Virus record (IMG/VR): IMGVR_UViG_3300018914_000034
Coordinates: 1-58,174 of that record
DNA from: a virus
Reading direction: 5' to 3' (one strand)
Length of the DNA stretch: 58,174 bases
The notes below the pieces were generated by a model. It ran no database searches. It was not told the origin of the DNA and was given only the letters and a program-made list of their open reading frames with translations. Of the stretch, positions 34,929 through 55,247 are shown piece by piece. The stretch's first letter is position 1, and each line of letters starts with the position of its first letter. The translations under genes were made by a program, and so were the position numbers.

Positions 34929-35250
34929 TTGGGAGGCTAGGGAGGGTAGAAAACCGGTTAGGTTCCAGCCTCCCAAACTGCCGCCCGCTTTATCTCTTTG
35001 CTTTCGCTTGTCTTTTTCTTCCTCTTGGGAGGGTAGGGAGGCTAGGGAGGGAAGAAATAACGCTACGCATGAGCAAGGATTAATTCCGTCAGCCCCCTAT
35101 GACCCCTGAACAATCATCTCGCGCGTGATCCGGATTTATCCTCCCTAGGCTCCCTAGCCTCCCATCGCAGCGCTAGAGCGTTGAAATCCCTTGAACCCTT
35201 TGACGGGAGGCTAGCCGTTGCAGGGGGCGCTACCCTCCCTAGCCTCCCGG
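34929..35250. repeat. Array of GGGAGGCTAGGGAGGG repeats, candidate replication origin
   Basis: Five related elements fill the non-coding region beside the helicase gene. 34931-34948 reads GGGAGGCTAGGGAGGGTA. 35026-35055 carries GGGAGGGTAGGGAGGCTAGG and more. 35140-35163, and 35231-35248 are the same on the other strand, the last being an exact inverted copy of the first over 18 bases. 35204-35214 has GGGAGGCTAG again. Between the first two elements is a pyrimidine-rich tract (34988-35028). Iterons plus an asymmetric tract next to a helicase gene fit an origin. No gene is seen in this stretch. Confidence 0.5.
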
Positions 35251-37156: not shown

Positions 37157-37336
37157 ATGGACTCGAAGGACTTGATCAAGGAGCTGGAGCAGGACGGTTG
37201 GTTCTGGCACTCGACGACGGGCAGCCACCGCCACTTCAAGCACCCCACCAAGCCCGGCAAGGTCACGGTGCCCCACCCGAAAAAGGACATGCACCCCAAG
37301 ACGGTGAAATCGATCAGGAAGGCGGCGGGGATCTAA
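37157..37336 (+). CDS. hicA: HicA family mRNA interferase toxin
   Basis: A 59-residue protein: MDSKDLIKELEQDGWFWHST, then a HRHFKHP strand and a VTVPHPKKDMHPKTVKSIRK end. It has the double-stranded-RNA-binding-like HicA fold; the His in GSHRHFKHP matches the catalytic His of the family. It would cut mRNA when not bound by HicB. The order toxin then antitoxin, 27 bases apart, is the normal HicAB layout. Confidence 0.92.
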   Translation: MDSKDLIKELEQDGWFWHSTTGSHRHFKHPTKPGKVTVPHPKKDMHPKTVKSIRKAAGI

Positions 37337-37363
37337 CCCTGCCCCAACCGAAAGGAGAGAACC

Positions 37364-37777
37364 ATGAGACCCTATGTTGCGCTGATCCACCTTCCCGAAA
37401 ACGGCTCGTCCTGGGGCGTCACCTTCCCCGACGTCCCTGGCTGTGTGTCCGCCGGTGACAGCTTCGAGGAAGCGGTCGAGAACGCCCGCGAAGCCCTCTC
37501 CGGTCACCTCGCCGCGCTCCAGGCCGATGGTGATCCGATCCCTGAGGCACGGACCTACAAGCAGGTTCGTGACGACGAGGACGTCCAAGCCGAGGTGCGG
37601 GAGGGCGCGACTCTGCACCTGGTCGAGCCCCGCGTGATCGCTGCCGAGCGCGTCAGGGTGAACATCACCATCGACAAGGGACTTCTGCGCCGAGCCGATG
37701 AAACTGCTGAGGCTAAAGGCATAACCCGATCGGCATTCATCGAGCAGGCGCTCGATCGTCTGATTGAGGTGTCCTAA
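37364..37777 (+). CDS. hicB: HicB family antitoxin
   Basis: 137 residues with AAGGAGAG upstream. The N-terminal half is the partial RNase H-like HicB domain (YVALIHLPENGSSWGVTFPDVPGCVSAGDSFEEAVENAREAL). The C-terminal half has a ribbon-helix-helix DNA-binding segment (VRVNITIDKGLLRRADETAEAKG and RSAFIEQALDRLI). It should neutralise HicA and repress the operon at the inverted repeat near 37122-37138. Confidence 0.93.
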   Translation: MRPYVALIHLPENGSSWGVTFPDVPGCVSAGDSFEEAVENAREALSGHLAALQADGDPIPEARTYKQVRDDEDVQAEVREGATLHLVEPRVIAAERVRVNITIDKGLLRRADETAEAKGITRSAFIEQALDRLIEVS

Positions 37778-40909: not shown

Positions 40910-41401
40910 TCAGGGTCGCTGCACGAGCCTCGGCCCTGCGCCGGCCTTCGCCGTCGCGCAGGCCTGTCCGAGCCCGTTCAGCGAGTTGAGAACTTCCGTG
41001 CGTGCGCGATCGATGGTCTCGATCTCGGCCGGCGAGAACTTCCCGTCGGCCGCCGCAGTGGCGAATTGCGTGACCAGCTTCGCGACGTCGCTGAGCACCT
41101 GGCTGTGGCTCGCGACGAGGCACCCGGCCTGGTCCGGCGCAGCCGCGCCGTCGGTAAGCTTGCATCCGTTGATCTCGGCCATCACGCCCGTGATCAGCGG
41201 CTGGCCGCAATCGGCTTCGAGCGCCAGGGCCTGGGGGATCGTGATGATGGTCGGATCGGTCGAGAGCTGGCAGCGCGACATCTGGCTGGAGGACAACCCT
41301 GCTGTCCCCCCTGCGCGGTCGACGCCGCCGCACAGTTTGACGAGATCACGGGTGGCGCTTTTCAGGCGGTGGAACCAGGCGTCGTCGATGGGGCGGCTCA
41401 T
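40910..41401 (-). CDS. CII-like phage regulatory protein
   Basis: 163 residues: MSRPIDDAWFHRLKSATRDLVKLCGGVDRAGGTAGLSSSQMSRCQ has the helix-turn-helix layout seen in the 'phage regulatory CII' proteins of alphaproteobacterial prophages, and TIITIPQALALEADCGQPLITGVMAEING is its usual continuation. A Ser/Ala-rich helical C-terminus follows. It lies downstream of cro as lambda cII does. It may activate a promoter or act in replication; which one cannot be said. Confidence 0.65.
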   Translation of the reverse strand: MSRPIDDAWFHRLKSATRDLVKLCGGVDRAGGTAGLSSSQMSRCQLSTDPTIITIPQALALEADCGQPLITGVMAEINGCKLTDGAAAPDQAGCLVASHSQVLSDVAKLVTQFATAAADGKFSPAEIETIDRARTEVLNSLNGLGQACATAKAGAGPRLVQRP

Positions 41402-41494: not shown

Positions 41495-41830
41495 TCACGG
41501 AGGATCACCCCCATGAAGAACTTTGAGACCGGCAGGGGCCGGCTCGACCGGCCTCAGACCGTCGATGACAGCGGCCGGGACCGTGCTCCACGGGATCTCC
41601 GCATAGCAGAGGCCCGGGCACGTCTCAGGGGCGCACTGCGGACCCTTGCGATTGCGCAGCGCCTCGCCGAGGAAGCCCACACCCACCGTCGCGACCTGTG
41701 CCACGAAGCCAAGAGACAGGACTGCGGTCAGCTCTCGCAGCTGACTGAATCCGAACGCTGGCAGGATAGCGTGGAGAGACAGAAAACCCCGGCGGGACAT
41801 GGCGATGGTGGAGGTGCCAAGAGTGCTCAT
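41495..41830 (-). CDS. Small protein with hydrophobic segments downstream of cro (uncertain)
   Basis: 111 residues. ATG 41830 overlaps the cro stop (ATGA) and GGAG lies six bases upstream. Residues about 10-55 contain SRRGFLSLHAILPAFGF, which resembles a twin-arginine-type or membrane signal, and VLSLGFVAQVATVGVGFLG. The C-terminal part has four Cys. A plus-strand frame starting near 41514 covers the same bases; coupling to cro favours the minus strand. Function unknown. Confidence 0.45.
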   Translation of the reverse strand: MSTLGTSTIAMSRRGFLSLHAILPAFGFSQLRELTAVLSLGFVAQVATVGVGFLGEALRNRKGPQCAPETCPGLCYAEIPWSTVPAAVIDGLRPVEPAPAGLKVLHGGDPP

Positions 41831-42069
41831 GACCGCTCCATTTCAGGAGAGGAGTGCGGCAAGGAACAATCAGCACTGATGACCTGGTCTAGAAAGTCAT
41901 TTGGAGTGACCTGACCGTGTGTGACTTCCTGAATACGGGCCAGCTGCAACGGACGCGGGATCCGCTTGCCACTTGCATACCGACTAACCGCCGCCTGCGT
42001 CGTTCCTATGAGCGACGCGAAGTCGGAGTGGGTCATCTGGTTCGCAGCCAAGTAGTCCGTGAGCTTCAT
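41827..42069 (-). CDS. cro: Cro-like repressor
   Basis: 80 residues with a Cro/C1-type helix-turn-helix: MTHSDFASLIGTTQAAVSRYASGKRIPRPLQLARI. It is divergent from cI, and the intergenic region holds three copies of an ATACC-N5-GGTAT operator. It probably binds the same operators and turns off cI in the lytic state. The short C-terminal tail is polar. Confidence 0.88.
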   Translation of the reverse strand: MKLTDYLAANQMTHSDFASLIGTTQAAVSRYASGKRIPRPLQLARIQEVTHGQVTPNDFLDQVISADCSLPHSSPEMERS

Positions 42070-42075
42070 ACCCCA

Positions 42076-42164
42076 TCAATACCAAAACGGTATCATGGTG
42101 GCAAGCCTCAAAATACCATTTTGGATTTAGACGCTGTGGAAACGCCCATGTACCATTTTGGTAT
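42076..42164. promoter_or_regulatory. cI/cro operator region with three ATACC-N5-GGTAT sites and leftward early promoter
   Basis: Operators: 42079-42093 (perfect ATACC/GGTAT arms), 42113-42127 (ATACC/GGATT) and 42150-42164 (GTACC/GGTAT), centres 34 and 37 bases apart. On the minus strand TTGCCA (complement of 42099-42104) and TATTGA (complement of 42076-42081), 17 bases apart, form a cro promoter; the first operator lies in it. The third operator overlaps the chosen cI start codon (42163), so CI can limit its own expression. Confidence 0.8.
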
Positions 42165-42873
42165 GAGTTTTCTGAAAGAGATCCGGGAAAAGAAAGGTCT
42201 CTCGCAGGCAAAGCTCGCGCAACTCGCCGGCACCAGCCAGCCCCAAATTAAGCGGCTAGAGGACGGCGAGCGCAAGCTGACCCGCGAGTGGGCCGAACGC
42301 CTTGCGCCCCATCTAGAAGTCGCGCCAGAACGAATCCTCTTCCCCAACGGAATGCCAGTTGGTGCACCGCCTCACATAGAAGATCGCGTCCGGGAGCAGC
42401 CTTCGCCCAATGTTGACTTGTCACGGATCGAGGACGCCCCTCCCCTCCGGAGGTTCGCTGGCCCACGAGACGTGCCCGTCCTTGGCACAGCTGTCGGCGG
42501 CGGCGATGAGGATGGCGATTTCCGCTTCAATGGCGAGACCATCGACATGGCGCCCCGGCCGCCCGGGATTGCCAACCGCAAAGACGTCTATGCCCTCTAT
42601 GTCGAGAACGACTCGATGTACCCCCGCTTCAGGCCAGGCGTGAAGCTGTATGTCGATCCGCACCGCAGGCCGCTTGCTGGCGATGACGTGGTGCTGGAGC
42701 TCCATGGCGCTGAGGGCGAAGCCGGCAAAGGCTTCATCAAGTGCCTCGTCAAACGGACGGCCACTAAGGTGATTGTTGAGCAGTTCAACCCGCCCAAGCA
42801 GATCGAGTTCGACGCCAACCAAGTGAAGAACTTGCACCGGGTCATCCCCTACGACGAGTTGCTGGGGTTTTAG
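42163..42873 (+). CDS. cI: CI-like phage repressor (HTH plus S24/LexA-like peptidase domain)
   Basis: ATG 42163 is chosen (an ATG at 42148 adds five residues; both lie in or next to an operator). 236 residues. HTH at about residues 5-50 (LKEIREKKGLSQAKLAQLAG, then TSQPQIKRLEDGERKL). The S24 domain has PVLGTAVGGGDEDG at the cleavage-loop place, VENDSMYPRFRPGVKLYVDP with the catalytic-type Ser, and a GFIKCLVKR strand with Lys. It keeps the prophage silent and should lose activity after DNA damage. A normal Ala-Gly cleavage pair is replaced by Ala-Val-Gly. Confidence 0.92.
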   Translation: MSFLKEIREKKGLSQAKLAQLAGTSQPQIKRLEDGERKLTREWAERLAPHLEVAPERILFPNGMPVGAPPHIEDRVREQPSPNVDLSRIEDAPPLRRFAGPRDVPVLGTAVGGGDEDGDFRFNGETIDMAPRPPGIANRKDVYALYVENDSMYPRFRPGVKLYVDPHRRPLAGDDVVLELHGAEGEAGKGFIKCLVKRTATKVIVEQFNPPKQIEFDANQVKNLHRVIPYDELLGF

Positions 42874-42932
42874 CCTTCCGGCCCCGACGGGACCAGAAGT
42901 CAATGGTAGAAGCCAGAAGGGAGTGTCTCAGG

Positions 42933-43055
42933 ATGAGCGAAAGAGAGAAAGATCCGCCGAAGCCTCCGCGCGAGAAGCCGCCGCCCCCGTCACAGGATGG
43001 ACTTGTTGGCACGCGGAGCGAAGTCCCTAAGGATAGAGATACCAAGTCCAAGTAG
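42933..43055 (+). CDS. Tiny Pro/Lys-rich protein after cI (uncertain)
   Basis: 40 residues: MSEREKDPPKPPREKPPPPS and then a polar, basic tail. AAGGGAG lies upstream of ATG 42933 but a little far. Very short Pro-rich proteins like this occur widely in alphaproteobacteria, without known function. It overlaps the end of the opposite membrane protein gene by 29 bases. It could be read on the cI transcript. Confidence 0.35.
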   Translation: MSEREKDPPKPPREKPPPPSQDGLVGTRSEVPKDRDTKSK

Positions 43056-43563
43056 CCCAACCGATCAGGGCAAGGGGCGCCAACGCCCCTGCCCCCATGC
43101 CGAGCCGCAGTGCGAGCACTTTGCGCGCATTGCTCAGGTGGCTTGCGTCGATGCGGCCCTGCTGAGATTGGGTGAGGTAGGCGAACATATCCGCTAGATC
43201 ATCATCGCTGCCGTCGATACGTCCCCGGACCAGCCACATTGAGGGAAGGCTGCCCGTATAGCCGTACTGCATGGGCCAGTTGGCCCAGATGAAGCATACC
43301 ATGCCAACGACCAGGCAGGATCCCGCAACGGCAAACGGCCACGGGGAGAGACCCGCGGGCGCCTCCTTCATGATCGCTGCCGCGAGGCCGAATAAGGCGA
43401 GCGCGATGGTCACGTAGGCGCTGAACAGGCTTGTAGCCTTTTGCTCAACGGACCTTTTGACCTCCAGGACATCCAAAAGATACTTCTCGGTTTGGGCGTG
43501 GGCCTCCTTGGCAATATTGAGATTGACGCTCGCAAGGCCATGAATTTCATCAGGCGTCAGCAT
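43027..43563 (-). CDS. Membrane protein in the immunity region (candidate superinfection exclusion)
   Basis: Start at ATG 43563 with GAGG upstream. 178 residues. N-terminal helix of about 40 residues (KEAHAQTEKYLLDVLEVKRSVEQKATSLF), membrane segments near 47-68, 75-95 and 155-175, and a soluble segment between the second and third (SQQGRIDASHLSNARKVLAL). Plan: helix, membrane hairpin, soluble loop, final membrane helix. It lies between the two CI-controlled promoters, the place of rexB in lambda. Exclusion of other phages is therefore a reasonable guess but not shown. Confidence 0.65.
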   Translation of the reverse strand: MLTPDEIHGLASVNLNIAKEAHAQTEKYLLDVLEVKRSVEQKATSLFSAYVTIALALFGLAAAIMKEAPAGLSPWPFAVAGSCLVVGMVCFIWANWPMQYGYTGSLPSMWLVRGRIDGSDDDLADMFAYLTQSQQGRIDASHLSNARKVLALRLGMGAGALAPLALIGWATWTWYLYP

Positions 43564-43631
43564 TTGTACCTCGCATGTCGGCAGGACCCCACGATGCTCC
43601 TGGTGCGCGGCGAAGGAGAGTTCCGGACAGG

Positions 43632-43934
43632 CTATGCCTCCGGCCCGATCGCGAGATATCCCACCTCGCCGTGAACAACGTATTGCGGCTGCCATCCTTC
43701 CATCTCTAGAGCCCGAGACGCGATCTCCTCGGGCTTTTTTTTACCTTCCTTCATGGCATCGCGGATCCGCAAGGCATAGACGGCATCTTCGACAAACGTC
43801 ATCTTGCGGCCGCTCATCTGGTAGGCCGTGTTGATGATGATCATCGCCATCTGCTCTGGTTCCATTTTGATAAAGGTGGGCGCCCAGTCCTCATCGGATC
43901 CGAGTTCAGATCCTCTCTGATGCTCCTGGTTCAT
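43632..43934 (-). CDS. Hypothetical protein of the immunity-region operon
   Basis: 100 residues: MNQEHQRGSELGSDEDWAPTF, then helical MEPEQMAMIIINTAYQMSGRKMTFVEDAVYALRIRDAMKEG and ends EMEGWQPQYVVHGEVGYLAIGPEA. No family recognised. It overlaps the zinc-ribbon gene by four bases. A strong plus-strand terminator is contained in its coding sequence (43711-43742), where the gene encodes a run of Lys codons. Confidence 0.6.
   Translation of the reverse strand: MNQEHQRGSELGSDEDWAPTFIKMEPEQMAMIIINTAYQMSGRKMTFVEDAVYALRIRDAMKEGKKKPEEIASRALEMEGWQPQYVVHGEVGYLAIGPEA
43711..43742 (+). terminator. Plus-strand intrinsic terminator inside a minus-strand gene
   Basis: GCCCGAG (43711-43717) pairs with CTCGGGC (43728-43734) across a ten-base loop, followed by eight T residues. 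It is one of the best terminators in the window. It faces transcription that comes from cI and would stop it inside the opposite operon, before it reaches the second operator region. Confidence 0.75.
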
Positions 43935-44179
43935 GAAAGCTTCTCCGGTTTCTGATTGTAAAGGTGGGGTATTATTTTGATGTTCCGGCTCGCGGCGTCG
44001 CGCTCATCGCAGCCGCGGCAGTAGAGCCGGCTCCCGAGCTCGTGGAAGCTGCGGTAGCCTCGCGCCTCCAGGTCAAGGATTTTCCGGCGCTGGAATCGGC
44101 GGACCCGGCCGCAATTCTCGCAGGTGATGTCGAGCGCCCAGGCTCGTCTCAATTCACTGTCTCTATGCCTTGCTTCCAT
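43931..44179 (-). CDS. Small zinc-ribbon-like protein
   Basis: 82 residues with CENC (near residue 20) and CRGC (near 54) spaced as in a zinc ribbon; the part between is basic and helical (FQRRKILDLEARGYRSFHEL). First gene of a three-gene minus-strand operon that starts opposite to the second CI-controlled promoter. May bind nucleic acid or a protein partner. Function unknown. Confidence 0.65.
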   Translation of the reverse strand: MEARHRDSELRRAWALDITCENCGRVRRFQRRKILDLEARGYRSFHELGSRLYCRGCDERDAASRNIKIIPHLYNQKPEKLS

Positions 44180-44287
44180 GATAGCCCCATGAATGTTCTT
44201 ATTTCGTTCATGGTGCGTTAGGCATATATGGCTGTCGAGTCAGATTCCGCTTTTCCACAGCAGTTAACAATAATGCTGTCATAAGCA

Positions 44288-44341
44288 ATACCATCCACAT
44301 TCCATATTGGTATTGACGTACATATACCAAATCGGTATTGA
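44288..44341 (+). promoter_or_regulatory. Rightward early promoter with CI-type operators
   Basis: TTGACG at 44313-44318 and TATTGA at 44336-44341 are 17 bases apart. A perfect ATACC-N5-GGTAT operator (44324-44338) lies between them, an imperfect one (44299-44313, ATTCC/GGTAT) touches the -35, and a half site starts at 44288. The block GGTATTGATGGG around the -10 is the same as in the cro promoter. CI should repress this promoter together with that of cro. Confidence 0.78.
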
Positions 44342-44371: not shown

Positions 44372-44752
44372 ATGACCCACACCCCTTCGAAACACTTGAG
44401 CCGTTTTCATTCAGTATCGGAGAACCGCGCTCTCACCCACGACGGCTACATCTGGCCGGTTCCCCGGGCAGAGATGCAACAGGCTCCGGCCATCGTCGAG
44501 CGCATGGCCGAAGACTTAGACCAAGTGGTCAAGTCTCATACCCGGATCTCGCTCTCGGGCCTCGGTTGGACGGCAGACCAGTTGATCCGCCACCGAGCCG
44601 CGGCCGTCGCCCGCTACAAGAAGGGCCAGGCTGCCACGGGCAGCTTCTCCACGAACGTGCGCAGCTTCGCCGCCGACGCCGCCGAGCTCGCCTGCCTCGC
44701 CGCCTTCGTCGGAATGGTGGGCGTGTGGGCGATCATCCTGGGGGGCCTTTGA
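44372..44752 (+). CDS. First gene of the rightward early operon, tail-anchored hypothetical protein
   Basis: 126 residues. N-terminal part polar (MTHTPSKHLSRFHSVSENRA), a helical middle with ADQLIRHRAAAVARYKKGQAA, and one hydrophobic helix at the very end (LACLAAFVGMVGVWAIILGGL), so it may be tail-anchored in the inner membrane. Position just behind the operator matches lambda N only by place, not by sequence. Its stop overlaps the next start (TGATG). Confidence 0.6.
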   Translation: MTHTPSKHLSRFHSVSENRALTHDGYIWPVPRAEMQQAPAIVERMAEDLDQVVKSHTRISLSGLGWTADQLIRHRAAAVARYKKGQAATGSFSTNVRSFAADAAELACLAAFVGMVGVWAIILGGL

Positions 44753-45523: not shown

Positions 45524-46129
45524 ATGACCTGGATGCCTTCCGTTTTCGGCAAGCCGATCGAGCTGCTCAAGCCCCGAGCAGACCAGGTCGATTTCAGCGC
45601 CATGGCGCATGCCCTCGCCAACGTGAACCGCTACGGCGGCCACGCGCAGACGCCGGTGTCCGTCGGCCTTCACGTGTTGATCGGGTGCGATATCGCGCCC
45701 GAGGCCTTGCGCCCCTGGTGGCTGCTCCATGACGGGCACGAAGAGCGCATGGGCGACACCGCCAGCCCCGTGAAGGAGACCTACAGCGCCCTCGCAACGG
45801 AGATGTACGGCCCTGAGGTGTCGAGCATGCTCACCCGGGTGCGGCTTGAGTTCGAGCGTCGCCACGACGCCGTCATCCACCAGGCGGCCGGGCTTCCCCT
45901 GCCGACGGACGAGCAGAAGCGGGAGATCCGGCGCATCGACCTGATCGCCCTCGCCACAGAGAAGCGCGACTTCCACGCCGAGCAGACCCGTCCCTGGTTC
46001 ACGGATCTTCACGGCATCCAGCCGGCGAAGCGGATCTACCGCTGGAAGCCGCCGGTGGTGGTCGCCGACGAGCTCTACCGCCGCTTTCGCAAGTACCTTC
46101 CCAGCCTTTCCACCCGCCACGTCGCCTAA
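45524..46129 (+). CDS. HD-domain phosphohydrolase
   Basis: Start at ATG 45524. 201 residues. ALANVNRYGGHAQTPVSVGLHVLIG, WLLHDGHEERMGDTASPVK and a later RRIDLIAL supply the His, His-Asp and Asp metal ligands of the HD family; the layout is close to YfbR-like nucleotidases. It could dephosphorylate nucleotides to change pools during phage growth, or hydrolyse a signal nucleotide. A start in an upstream frame is less likely. Confidence 0.8.
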   Translation: MTWMPSVFGKPIELLKPRADQVDFSAMAHALANVNRYGGHAQTPVSVGLHVLIGCDIAPEALRPWWLLHDGHEERMGDTASPVKETYSALATEMYGPEVSSMLTRVRLEFERRHDAVIHQAAGLPLPTDEQKREIRRIDLIALATEKRDFHAEQTRPWFTDLHGIQPAKRIYRWKPPVVVADELYRRFRKYLPSLSTRHVA

Positions 46130-46142
46130 ACCGAGGCACCCC

Positions 46143-47258
46143 ATGAACATCACGCTTGAAAGAGACCAGCTGCTGAACGCGCTCGGCGTCGTTCACCGCA
46201 TCGTGCCGAAGAAGGCCGACATCCCGATTCTGCAGAACGTCCTGCTCGATGCAGGCCCGCTCACCATCACCGCGAACGACTGCGACATGATGGGAACGGC
46301 CGTTCTGGCAGGCCAGGCCGGCACCTCATCGGACCGCATCACGGTGCCTGGGCACACCCTCTACGACATCGTGCGCAAGTTCCCGGCCGGCGCCACCATC
46401 AACGCCGCGCTGGAGGGCCCGAAGGGGCCGCTGATCGTCAAGAGCGGGCGCTCCCGGTTCTCGCTGCAGACGCTGCCGGCCGAGGACTTTCCCGACTTCA
46501 GCATCGGCGAAATGAGCCATCACTTCTTCATCCCAGGCGCGACGCTGGCAAAGCTGATCGGCCGCTGCGAGTTCGCGATCTGCACGGAACCGACGCGCTT
46601 CTATCTGAACGGCATCTACCTGCACGTGGTCGATGGGCCGGACGGGCCGATGCTTCGCCTGGTCGCGACCGATGGGCTGCGCCTGGCGCAGGTCCAGACG
46701 ATCGCTCCCCCGGAAGCGGAGGGCATGCCGAGCGTGATCGTGCCGCGCTTCTTCGTATCGGAAATGAAGCGCATTGCGGAGACGGCCGGCGACGTCGAGA
46801 TCTCGCTGTCGAAGAACAAGATCCGCATCAGCAACGGCAAGGGCACGGTGCTGGTATCCAAGCTGATCGACGCGCAGTTCCCTGATTACCAGCGGGTGAT
46901 CCCTTCGTCGCACAGCAGGACGGCCGTGATCGAGCGGGCCTGCCTGGAAACCGCTCTCGATCGCCTGCTGACCATCGCCGAGGGCAAGCAGAACGCGGTG
47001 AAGTTCGCCTTCAAAGAGGATCAGCTCGAGCTCACGCACACCAACCCCGACCGGGGCTTCGCATCGGAGGAGATCGACGCCTCAATGACAGGCGACGACT
47101 TCGAGATCGGCTTCAACGGGCGCTTCGTCCTCGACGTGCTCGGCGCTGCCGGCGGCGAGCGCATCATCCTGAAGATGGGCGAGCCGGGCGCGCCCGGCGT
47201 TTTCCACCCCGAGGATGACGAGAATGCCCTCTTCGTCTGCATGCCGATGAGGGTGTGA
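46143..47258 (+). CDS. dnaN: DNA polymerase III beta subunit (sliding clamp), phage encoded
   Basis: 371 residues, normal for the family. Begins MNITLERDQLLNALGVVHRIVPKKADIPILQNVLL, has a middle LIGRCEFAICTEPTRFYLNGIYLHV and FVSEMKRIAETAGDVEISLSKNKI, and ends with DDENALFVCMPMRV, the usual beta-clamp end (PMR-V/L). It should form a ring on DNA and bind host Pol III or phage partners. It lies inside the prophage, not near dnaA or recF, so it is an extra clamp. No phage polymerase gene is present. Confidence 0.93.
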   Translation: MNITLERDQLLNALGVVHRIVPKKADIPILQNVLLDAGPLTITANDCDMMGTAVLAGQAGTSSDRITVPGHTLYDIVRKFPAGATINAALEGPKGPLIVKSGRSRFSLQTLPAEDFPDFSIGEMSHHFFIPGATLAKLIGRCEFAICTEPTRFYLNGIYLHVVDGPDGPMLRLVATDGLRLAQVQTIAPPEAEGMPSVIVPRFFVSEMKRIAETAGDVEISLSKNKIRISNGKGTVLVSKLIDAQFPDYQRVIPSSHSRTAVIERACLETALDRLLTIAEGKQNAVKFAFKEDQLELTHTNPDRGFASEEIDASMTGDDFEIGFNGRFVLDVLGAAGGERIILKMGEPGAPGVFHPEDDENALFVCMPMRV

Positions 47259-52542: not shown

Positions 52543-53661
52543 ATGCCCCCGCACGACTACCCTTATGTCAGCAGCTATTTCGACCGCCATGGCAAGGAAC
52601 GGTGGCGGTTCCGCCGTGCGGGCAAGACCGTCAGCCTGCCCGGAAAGCCCGGAGACCCGGCCTTTGAGGCAGCTTACCAGGCCATCGTTGAGGGCCGGCC
52701 TGTCCAGAAGGCCAAGGTCGAGCGACTGCCCACGTCGGCAGCGCCGCGCTCTCTTCGCGCCGCATGGCGAATCGTCACCACCCGCACGCCCGAGTGGCAG
52801 GCGATGGAGCCAGAAACCCAAGCCCGGCAGAAGAAGATCGCTGAGGATTTCCTGAGAAGCCCCGTGGTCGAGGGGCAAAAGATCACCTGGGGCGAGATCC
52901 CGCTCGACCAGCTCGAGCGCCGGCACGTTCGCACGATTCTGGCCGACCGCAGTGATACCCCACATGCCGCGCGCCATCTTCTCACGATCCTGCGCAAGAT
53001 GATCCTGGCCGGCCTCGATGAGGATTGGATCAAGAACGATCCGACCTATCGGCTGAAGTACCGGCCTGCTTACAAGGGCTGGAGGGCCTGGACGGAGGAA
53101 GAGCGCGCCGCCTTCGAGAAGCGCTGGCCGATCGGAACGACGCCCCGGCTCGCCTATGCCCTCGCGCTCTGGCTTGGCAACCGCCGGGCCGATGTCTGCG
53201 CCTTGCGGCCGGACCAGCGCTTTACGGGCACGCGAATCGGCCCCGACGGAGCCGAGATCCACTACGACGAGTTCCGCTTCGAGCAGGGCAAGACCGGCCG
53301 TACCCTCGTGCTGCCCGTGACACCGATGCTGCAGGAGGTCCTTGCGGCGGCCGACCTCTCCGGCCCAACGGTCCTGAAGACGGCCTACGGCAAGCCCTTC
53401 TCGGTCAAGTCACTGACCGGTCGCATGCGGGACTGGACGCGCTCGGCCGGGCTGCCGCAGGGATGCACCCTGCACGGGCTACGGAAGACGCTGGGCAAGA
53501 TGCTGGCGGAGAGCGGCGCAACAACCAGGCAGATCATGGATTCGCTCGGACACACCGATATCGCCCATGCGGAGCTGTATTCGCGCGAGGCTGAACAGGA
53601 ACGCCTAGCACGTGACGCGATGGCCTCGGTGGTTCGACTCGTGCGGCCACAGAGAAAGTAG
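52543..53661 (+). CDS. int: Tyrosine integrase
   Basis: 372 residues. N-terminal arm/core-binding part to about residue 170. The catalytic residues are all visible: Arg in NRRADVC (about 214), Lys250 in EQGKTGR, HGLR at 311-314, His337 in SLGHTD and Tyr346 in ELYSR. It recombines attP with the tRNA-Glu 3' end and points toward attR, 1.5 kb away. Last gene of the rightward early operon, so both integration and excision follow CI control. Confidence 0.93.
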   Translation: MPPHDYPYVSSYFDRHGKERWRFRRAGKTVSLPGKPGDPAFEAAYQAIVEGRPVQKAKVERLPTSAAPRSLRAAWRIVTTRTPEWQAMEPETQARQKKIAEDFLRSPVVEGQKITWGEIPLDQLERRHVRTILADRSDTPHAARHLLTILRKMILAGLDEDWIKNDPTYRLKYRPAYKGWRAWTEEERAAFEKRWPIGTTPRLAYALALWLGNRRADVCALRPDQRFTGTRIGPDGAEIHYDEFRFEQGKTGRTLVLPVTPMLQEVLAAADLSGPTVLKTAYGKPFSVKSLTGRMRDWTRSAGLPQGCTLHGLRKTLGKMLAESGATTRQIMDSLGHTDIAHAELYSREAEQERLARDAMASVVRLVRPQRK

Positions 53662-53695: not shown

Positions 53696-54607
53696 CTACG
53701 GTCCGATAACCCAGGCGTTTCCACGAGAGTTTTCAATGATCTTGAGCGCGTTTGTGCCTTGGAATGATGCCATGAAGGCATGGTGGACGCTCAGGATCGC
53801 CTCCTGCAGATCTTGATCTTCCTCAATCATGCGGATCTTAAGGCCGATGGCTTGGCACTTGTCCGATGGATAGTGTTGGCCGTGCTCAGAAGTACCAGCG
53901 TAGTTCATCAGTTCGTTGACGACCGCCTCTGCTGCAGCTTCTGGATTCTCATCATCGGCGAACATGTTTCCCTGCAGCCAACCCTTCACCATCGATCGAG
54001 CGCCCTCAACAGCCCGTTCGCAGTCCATGATAAAGCCGGGGGGATATTTCGCGAAGACATGCTGCCAGACGACATTCCGGAGCTGATCCTGTCGAATTTC
54101 CTCGATCGCACGGTCGACTTCTGCCAGCACACCCATAGCCGGCAGGCCGCGGATCTGCGGATCCGTTGGGCCTAGAGATGAATGCTTGCCCAGTAGGATC
54201 TCCTTGCCCGCACATGCAATCATCGTTCCGACGCTCATGGCGATCTGGGGAACGACTACTCGGATGTTTCGGCCGACCGTCTTGTAGAGATATTCGACGA
54301 TTGAACGGCCAGCCTCAATGCCACCGCCAGGAGTGTGGAGGAGAAGGTCGAGACCCCGGTTCTTATCGATACCGTGAAGAACGGCCATCATGCCGTTCAT
54401 GTCGAAGTCGCCGACGGCGGCTTCAGGATGTATCCGCCCGTCGACGTCCATCCGATTCAAAAAGCCCGAGTAGTAGGCGATGATCGGCCTACCGGCTCGG
54501 GCTTCTAAACCTGCTAGATATTTTTTTCTGACTTGGTCGTACGGATTGGCAACGCCGCTGGCGCTAAGTTGCTCAATTTCTTGATTGATTTCGTTCCAAG
54601 TTGGCAT
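53696..54607 (-). CDS. SDH-type Clp-fold serine protease (cargo)
   Basis: 303 residues. LDLLLHTPGGGIEAGRSIVEYL, VVVPQIAMSVGTMIACAGKEILLG and KHSSLGPTDPQIRG are the hallmarks of the serine-dehydrogenase-proteinase/SppA-like Clp fold; the Ser in AMSVGTM is the expected nucleophile. No signal peptide or membrane segment, so cytoplasmic. Codon use is less GC-rich than the phage core, and the gene is separate from both operons, between int and attR. This is a typical cargo place. A role in defence or stress is possible. Confidence 0.85.
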   Translation of the reverse strand: MPTWNEINQEIEQLSASGVANPYDQVRKKYLAGLEARAGRPIIAYYSGFLNRMDVDGRIHPEAAVGDFDMNGMMAVLHGIDKNRGLDLLLHTPGGGIEAGRSIVEYLYKTVGRNIRVVVPQIAMSVGTMIACAGKEILLGKHSSLGPTDPQIRGLPAMGVLAEVDRAIEEIRQDQLRNVVWQHVFAKYPPGFIMDCERAVEGARSMVKGWLQGNMFADDENPEAAAEAVVNELMNYAGTSEHGQHYPSDKCQAIGLKIRMIEEDQDLQEAILSVHHAFMASFQGTNALKIIENSRGNAWVIGP

Positions 54608-55171: not shown

Positions 55172-55188
55172 TGGCGCTCCCTAGGGGA
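55172..55188. repeat. attR core within the tRNA-Glu 3' end
   Basis: Exact copy of the 17 bases at 315-331. It covers the CCA, the discriminator base and the 3' side of the acceptor and part of the T stem. The insertion leaves the tRNA intact because the phage supplies the 3' end. Phage DNA lies to the left, host DNA to the right. Confidence 0.8.
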
Positions 55189-55247
55189 CTCGAACCCCTG
55201 TTTTCGCCGTGAGAGGGCGACGTCCTAGACCGCTAGACGAAGGGAGC
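55172..55247 (-). tRNA. tRNA-Glu(CTC)
   Basis: Read on the minus strand the 76 bases fold into a full cloverleaf: acceptor GCTCCCT with AGGGAGC, anticodon stem TCGCC/GGCGA around loop CTCTCAC with anticodon CTC, T loop TTCGAGT, discriminator G and encoded CCA. It is the integration site of the phage. Its own terminator now lies 55 kb away at 274-299. Confidence 0.95.

Follow-up and report, generated by a model that had tools for sequence, protein, structure and literature searches.

What is the function of a small group of genes that points against a repressor gene and lies between two copies of what seems to be the same repressor-controlled promoter? The question is raised by positions 42,076 to 44,341 of IMG/VR virus record IMGVR_UViG_3300018914_000034, of which the whole stretch of 58,174 nucleotides (the window) was analysed. 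The window reads as an integrated prophage with its right flank, in an alphaproteobacterial host. Between the cI/cro region and a second operator cluster lie cI and, on the minus strand, three genes headed by one for a zinc-ribbon protein. In our best reading this protein would be an SOS-induced antirepressor, or another CI-directed inducer, common to heteroimmune prophages of the Hyphomicrobiales, and its gene probably sets off induction of the virus instead of serving in dormancy.

When one mismatch is allowed, the pattern ATACC-N5-GGTAT has four matches in the window, where 0.22 are expected (shuffle mean) and none of 100 shuffles reaches four. They are found exclusively at cI/cro and, 2.2 kb away, at 44299 and 44324; the sites at 42079 and 44324 are perfect, and those at 42150 and 44299 carry a single mismatch. 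An earlier, sequence-only reading had listed these four sites, an imperfect one at 42113 (ATACCATTTTGGATT) and a half site at 44288 (ATACCATCCACATTC). The pattern count bears out the four, and direct reading of the letters the other two. The promoter pair that it had described was likewise recovered, with TTGNCN-N17-TATTGA at both ends and the operator in register. To this we can add a PRM-like element for cI, TTAGAC-N17-[GT]TACCA-N7-ATG, the layout of which is identical in the window and in two relatives (L005 and L006). By lambda precedent, the placement of OR2 and OR3 suggests that cI is both positively and negatively autoregulated and that its message is leaderless. A consensus scan for sigma-70 promoters and terminators gave no excess over chance, and no phage or plasmid record matched the region in a DNA comparison.

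The lambda immunity region, with OL/PL, OR/PR, cI and rexAB, is the obvious object of comparison. In both cases two operator clusters flank cI, with three sites at the cI end, OR2 by the -35 and OR3 over the -10 of PRM, a cI message that is probably leaderless in the window, and cro and a CII-like gene in one early operon. Unlike in lambda, the conserved enclosed gene of the window is opposite to cI, behind a LexA box and off the cI transcript, the operators are ATACC-N5-GGTAT, and the clamp, ParB and int genes lie in the second operon. As one operator occurs at two divergent early promoters flanking cI, and CI combines a helix-turn-helix (HTH) with an S24 C-terminal domain, the window very likely holds an immunity region of the lambda type, a kind already known.

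Five close relatives of CI were found, all from viral contigs. In L005 and L006, where CI is 66-69% identical, both operator clusters are kept at matching places. In L007 and L008 the alignment shows a different N-terminal domain of CI, ATACC sites are absent, and a new sequence, TTCTGATTTTCCGAAAT, occurs both at cI/cro and to the right of the zinc-ribbon gene. Since the DNA-binding domain and both clusters have been replaced together, here and alike in other repressor/operator pairs, it is very likely that one CI reads both promoters. The proposal that CI represses both a leftward and a rightward operon is thus strongly supported by conservation and by this co-replacement. A scan with the right-hand operator alone returned many CI-encoding contigs that also carry the left cluster. 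Within a set picked by the CI C-terminus or the zinc ribbon, and not by the operator, at least two ATACC-N5-GGTAT sites were present for all four CIs with the helix motif QPQI and for 1 of the 70 others; this lone locus (L237) has the related helix QAQI.

Both ends could also be compared without reference to any operator, by searching in 47 loci for a word shared between the region before cI and the region before the zinc-ribbon gene. The shared word beats every other window of the locus in 17 of the 47, and ranks in the top 5% in 23. When the right-hand regions were swapped among the 39 non-redundant loci, the own pair beat all others in 16, a result found 0 times in 20,000 permutations. The shared words are mostly palindromes and differ between loci, e.g. 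GTGGGAYGCATCCCAC in Agrobacterium phage Rivra, CGGTATTTTTACCG in L198, GAGCTATTTTTAGCTC in L201 and TTGCGATTATCGCAA in L206. That the right-hand sites serve another regulator, for instance Cro alone, or arise by chance is highly improbable: the half site at 44288 is weak, but the sites are conserved at matching positions, and in many loci they are replaced together with the DNA-binding domain of CI. In known phages Cro binds the same sites as CI; on that behaviour, sharing of sites by the two proteins is expected and hence no contradiction.

Sixteen base pairs separate the start of the lead gene in the minus-strand trio from a perfect LexA box of the alphaproteobacterial type (44195-44209). 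Chance would put 1.55 such boxes into 58 kb, so the mere presence of one says nothing, and position and conservation carry the argument. A perfect GTTC-N7-GTTC stands just before the zinc-ribbon start in all 11 homologues read by hand (the window, L005-L009, L046, L134, L136/L146, L147 and Rivra). Two genome searches, of the family and the order of Microvirga, yielded 43 homologues at separate loci, 40 of them with a box no more than 60 bp from the start. Over 275 kb of strand these loci have 46 boxes in total, and the density elsewhere corresponds to well under 1% per 60-bp stretch. In Caulobacter, GTTCN7GTTC has been published as the SOS box (PMC9578287 Table 1; PMC12700426). The position and conservation of the box, at the promoter as would be required of an antirepressor of this type, are strong sequence evidence for LexA control of the zinc-ribbon gene.

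With a conserved LexA box in front of it, a gene would be expected to be silent in the lysogen and switched on by DNA damage. The three genes had been taken in the sequence-only reading for lysogenic, perhaps exclusion, genes, and for the lead gene this view was not sustained and is probably wrong. A rex-like operon, expressed in the lysogen, would agree with the position of the trio between both operators, with a variable downstream cargo, as conversion genes would be, and with the likeness of the third product to a membrane protein. We nevertheless regard it as improbable, as the zinc-ribbon gene follows its conserved LexA box and points against cI, so that it lies off the cI transcript, and as its two companions are not retained alongside it in L005-L009. 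The trio does not persist as a unit: of its members L005-L007 share the zinc-ribbon gene alone, other genes fill the space between that gene and cI, and the sole homologue found of the 100-residue protein is in L035. Co-transcription with cI, of the lambda rexAB type, does not apply, all three enclosed genes being on the opposite strand. For the membrane protein (43027-43563) there was no Pfam match at E 1e-5 and no match in L005-L009, and for a 50-codon frame after cI (42903-43055) no family match.

Two CxxC pairs are present in 39 of 39 zinc-ribbon proteins. Ten members scanned against Pfam, NCBIfam and PHROGs gave best E-values of 0.0026, 0.058 and 0.0049, none of them above a curated cut-off or, in PHROGs, convincing, and the open-licence literature that was searched holds no description of the family. 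Since a search of 385 genomes across the class gave no match beyond the centre genome, the family looks confined, at this sensitivity, to the order of Microvirga, plus Rivra of Agrobacterium. In L203 and L204 zinc-ribbon genes occur as a tandem pair, and the CI C-terminus has no match within 6 kb of them. In one Microvirga gene (L134, 7586-7900) a long GQGQGRW repeat separates the second CxxC pair from the conserved C-terminal part. In the stretch that parts the LexA box from the right operators (44225-44262 in the window, and the matching place in L005-L009 and L046) there is a GAGTC or similar sequence of the CcrM type (GANTC), often in two copies, along with a DnaA-box sequence resembling TTTTCCACAG, to which L007 and L008 add TTGTGGATAA. 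This stretch could be a promoter, an origin element or a cell-cycle input.

The zinc-ribbon gene is closely associated with one type of repressor. An S24 repressor lies within 6 kb of it in 36 of 40 loci, and in all 47 paired loci it is tail to tail (convergent) with cI. It is restricted to one CI C-terminal clade, several members of which (L232-L237) are without it; searches started from the CI C-terminus returned more distant S24 proteins lacking a zinc-ribbon gene. Protein distances of the zinc ribbon correlate with those of the CI C-terminus at r 0.66 and with those of the N-terminus at r 0.24. An unbiased sample of Peptidase_S24 proteins was dropped, as it was swamped by LexA-like and other chromosomal S24 proteins.

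In the CIs linked to a zinc ribbon the cleavage position was located by the pattern P-x-x-G-x-x-x-P1-P1', aligned by eye with LexA and lambda CI. Of 39 such CIs, 35 have Gly at P1 (the window CI and 34 more, all G-G), and the rest have A-G, C-G or, in L245, A-S. The window CI therewith lacks the A-G or C-G of RecA-stimulated cleavage, although the Ser/Lys dyad of the S24 fold is present in it as in all 39; the G-G bond fits, without proving, a repressor that is no longer inactivated by this route.

Because of the link with CI, these cleavage-site data and the precedent of the Gifsy prophages, we propose that the zinc-ribbon protein acts as an antirepressor. In a lysogen CI would occupy the three operators at cI/cro and, at a distance of 2.2 kb, another two or three. 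Bound there, it would shut the leftward cro/cII/replication operon and the rightward nucleotidase/clamp/ParB/int operon, as the strong comparative evidence suggests. Host LexA would shut the minus-strand operon headed by the zinc-ribbon gene, through the box indicated by sequence and conservation. Upon DNA damage LexA would be cleaved and the zinc-ribbon protein made, which would then inactivate CI, most likely by binding its C-terminal domain, and both early operons would open. We lean, with modest confidence, towards such a lambda-type immunity region with a built-in SOS switch.

Several observations limit this case or pull the other way. For the window itself the operator-blind test was not significant (89 of 933 windows as good), because 5-bp arms are short, and the operator evidence for the window therefore rests on the pattern count and conservation. 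The zinc-ribbon gene is tightly linked to the 3' end of cI, which its own end faces, and this alone could explain the C-terminal correlation. L013, outside the 47 pairs, has a weak zinc-ribbon match in the same direction as cI and without a LexA box. A fold search with the AlphaFold model of the zinc-ribbon protein (mean predicted local distance difference test score, pLDDT, 83.6) gave weak generic resemblance only, e.g. to MCM N-terminal domains, with Z under 4. With its dyad intact, CI may still cleave itself, perhaps at G-G. The missing A-G bond seemed at first a clean marker of antirepression in loci selected by operator, and was dropped when G-G was also found in related CIs without a zinc-ribbon gene (L232-L237). 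Finally, in L097 and L133, where CI has an A-G bond, the place of the zinc-ribbon gene is taken by another small gene behind a LexA box; either a strict rule of "antirepressor instead of cleavage" is weakened or the slot holds SOS genes of several kinds.

Some of these points would suit a zinc-ribbon gene that is SOS-induced but aimed at the host or at early phage transcription (by a division block, RNA polymerase binding or a DNA-damage response), with CI cleaving itself under RecA stimulation as in lambda. The intact dyad in 39 of 39 CIs and the other small gene of L097 and L133 agree with this, as do the small phage-borne proteins of the TraR kind, which act on host transcription (PMC9239242). 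Yet Gly at P1 in 35 of 39 CIs and the A-S bond of L245 do not agree with it, and for a host-directed factor neither the convergent pairing with one CI C-terminal clade nor the co-divergence with that domain would be expected; we consider this explanation unlikely, though clearly less so than an exclusion operon. In L097, L133 and L051 the small gene behind the LexA box, about 1.3 kb after the cI start, is convergent with cI and adjoins the right operator; its product has 86 residues and does not resemble the zinc ribbon. This is possibly another SOS gene in the same slot. In L137 (position 1039), from an alphaproteobacterial metagenome-assembled genome, a LexA box lies some 110 bp upstream of the gene for a CI-type repressor whose cleavage position is G-G, on a contig too short to exclude a zinc-ribbon gene. 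Three other loci with G-G-type CIs and no detectable zinc-ribbon gene (L234, L235 and L236) have a LexA box 400-700 bp past the cI 3' end, in the other orientation.

Returning to the proposed antirepressor, it would have close functional parallels. Gifsy prophages are induced by small LexA-controlled antirepressors that act across heteroimmune repressors (Lemire 2011, PMC3121763). Going by its description, the GfoR/GfoA system resembles that of the window in the small LexA-controlled protein and in one antirepressor serving heteroimmune repressors with different operators (PMC3121763). It differs in that the zinc-ribbon gene of the window lies inside the immunity region and the window CI has an S24 domain. 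We know of no zinc ribbon in Tum of coliphage 186 or AntC of N15. These are also LexA-controlled antirepressors but different proteins, Tum carrying a DinI-like half (PMC3121763). In Agrobacterium phage Rivra (PV764937) the order is the same: CI (RIVRA_52), LexA box and zinc-ribbon frame, and the clamp operon beyond, with a GTGGGAYGCATCCCAC-type site at both ends. Its CI and zinc ribbon are 26% and 34% identical to those of the window and its operator differs. The Rivra zinc-ribbon gene, next to the repressor and behind its LexA box, is unannotated (L148 6001-6210, i.e. 34971-35180 of the phage record). In Rhizobium phage 16-3 two operator regions flank the repressor gene, the operator sequence differs from that of the window, and to our knowledge there is no LexA-box gene. 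This rhizobial temperate phage has a C repressor and an immC region (PMC10460002).

As these prophages have the CI C-terminal domain in common and exchange DNA-binding domain and operators together, one type of antirepressor could serve many heteroimmune prophages. More tentatively, and at somewhat less than even chances, we suggest an undescribed family of LexA-controlled zinc-ribbon antirepressors in Hyphomicrobiales prophage immunity regions, acting on the shared C-terminal domain of a CI clade that largely lost the A-G bond; a dozen or more operator specificities would share one trigger and could be co-induced. Little work has been done on prophage induction in rhizobia, Methylobacterium and their relatives. 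Should the zinc-ribbon protein prove to be an antirepressor, it would bring a new protein family to this role, one with dozens of members already sequenced. The natural swaps separate operator recognition from induction and offer a clean test of which part of the repressor an antirepressor reads. A LexA box and zinc ribbon beside cI furthermore serve as an annotation marker for immunity regions, the gene being unannotated in at least one deposited phage genome, that of Rivra.

Table 1. Features of the immunity region and the adjoining early operons (positions in the window).
Feature	Position	Strand	Remarks
CII-like activator	40910..41401	-	PHROG_101, E 3.5e-16
Cro-like HTH protein, first gene of leftward operon	41827..42069	-	HTH_3 E 7.3e-6, P22_Cro E 0.001
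Leftward early promoter	42076..42104	-	-35 TTGCCA 42104-42099, 17 bp, -10 TATTGA 42081-42076
Operator OR1 ATACCAAAACGGTAT	42079..42093	.	overlaps -10 of leftward promoter
Operator OR2, imperfect, ATACCATTTTGGATT	42113..42127	.	touches -35 of cI promoter
PRM-like cI promoter	42127..42155	+	TTAGAC-N17-GTACCA; cI ATG 7 bp on; message probably leaderless
Operator OR3 GTACCATTTTGGTAT	42150..42164	.	covers cI -10 and start codon
CI repressor	42163..42873	+	HTH and S24 domain; Ser/Lys dyad present; cleavage position G-G, not A-G
Membrane protein, third gene of minus-strand trio, variable cargo	43027..43563	-	open reading frame (ORF); PHROG_25606 E 2.7e-5
100-residue protein	43632..43934	-	overlaps zinc-ribbon stop codon (ATGA)
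Zinc-ribbon protein with two CxxC pairs, gene preceded by LexA box; candidate antirepressor or inducer	43931..44179	-	
LexA box GTTCTTATTTCGTTC (GTTC-N7-GTTC)	44195..44209	.	only such box in window; conserved upstream of homologues
Right operator half site ATACCATCCACATTC	44288..44302	.	
Right operator OL2 ATTCCATATTGGTAT	44299..44313	.	
Rightward early promoter	44313..44341	+	-35 TTGACG 44313-44318, N17, -10 TATTGA 44336-44341
Right operator OL1 ATACCAAATCGGTAT	44324..44338	.	in spacer and over -10 of rightward promoter
First gene of rightward operon	44372..44752	+	ORF; partial match, same place in L005
Deoxyribonucleoside 5'-monophosphate phosphatase-like (5'-nucleotidase-like), rightward operon	45527..46129	+	PHROG_318 E 4.1e-35
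DNA polymerase III beta clamp, rightward operon	46143..47258	+	Pfam

Profile matches agree with the earlier assignment of a replication operon to the left and a clamp/ParB/int operon to the right. The leftward operon encodes the Cro-like HTH protein, the CII-like protein (PHROG_101), a DUF7146 protein and a D5-type primase-helicase, and the rightward operon the 5'-nucleotidase-like protein (PHROG_318), the beta clamp, a DUF5131 protein, ParB and the integrase. The integrase gene (52543-53661) is followed in the right flank by tRNA-Glu (55172-55247), and the frames beyond are of bacterial type, resembling, as judged from their translations, RluD and a heat-shock sigma factor. A gene for a ClpP-like SDH-type serine proteinase (PF01972) lies at 53696-54607, between integrase and tRNA-Glu. 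Finally, on the plus strand inside the leftward replication operon (37157-37777), a HicB-like antitoxin (PF15919) is preceded by a small HicA-like frame.

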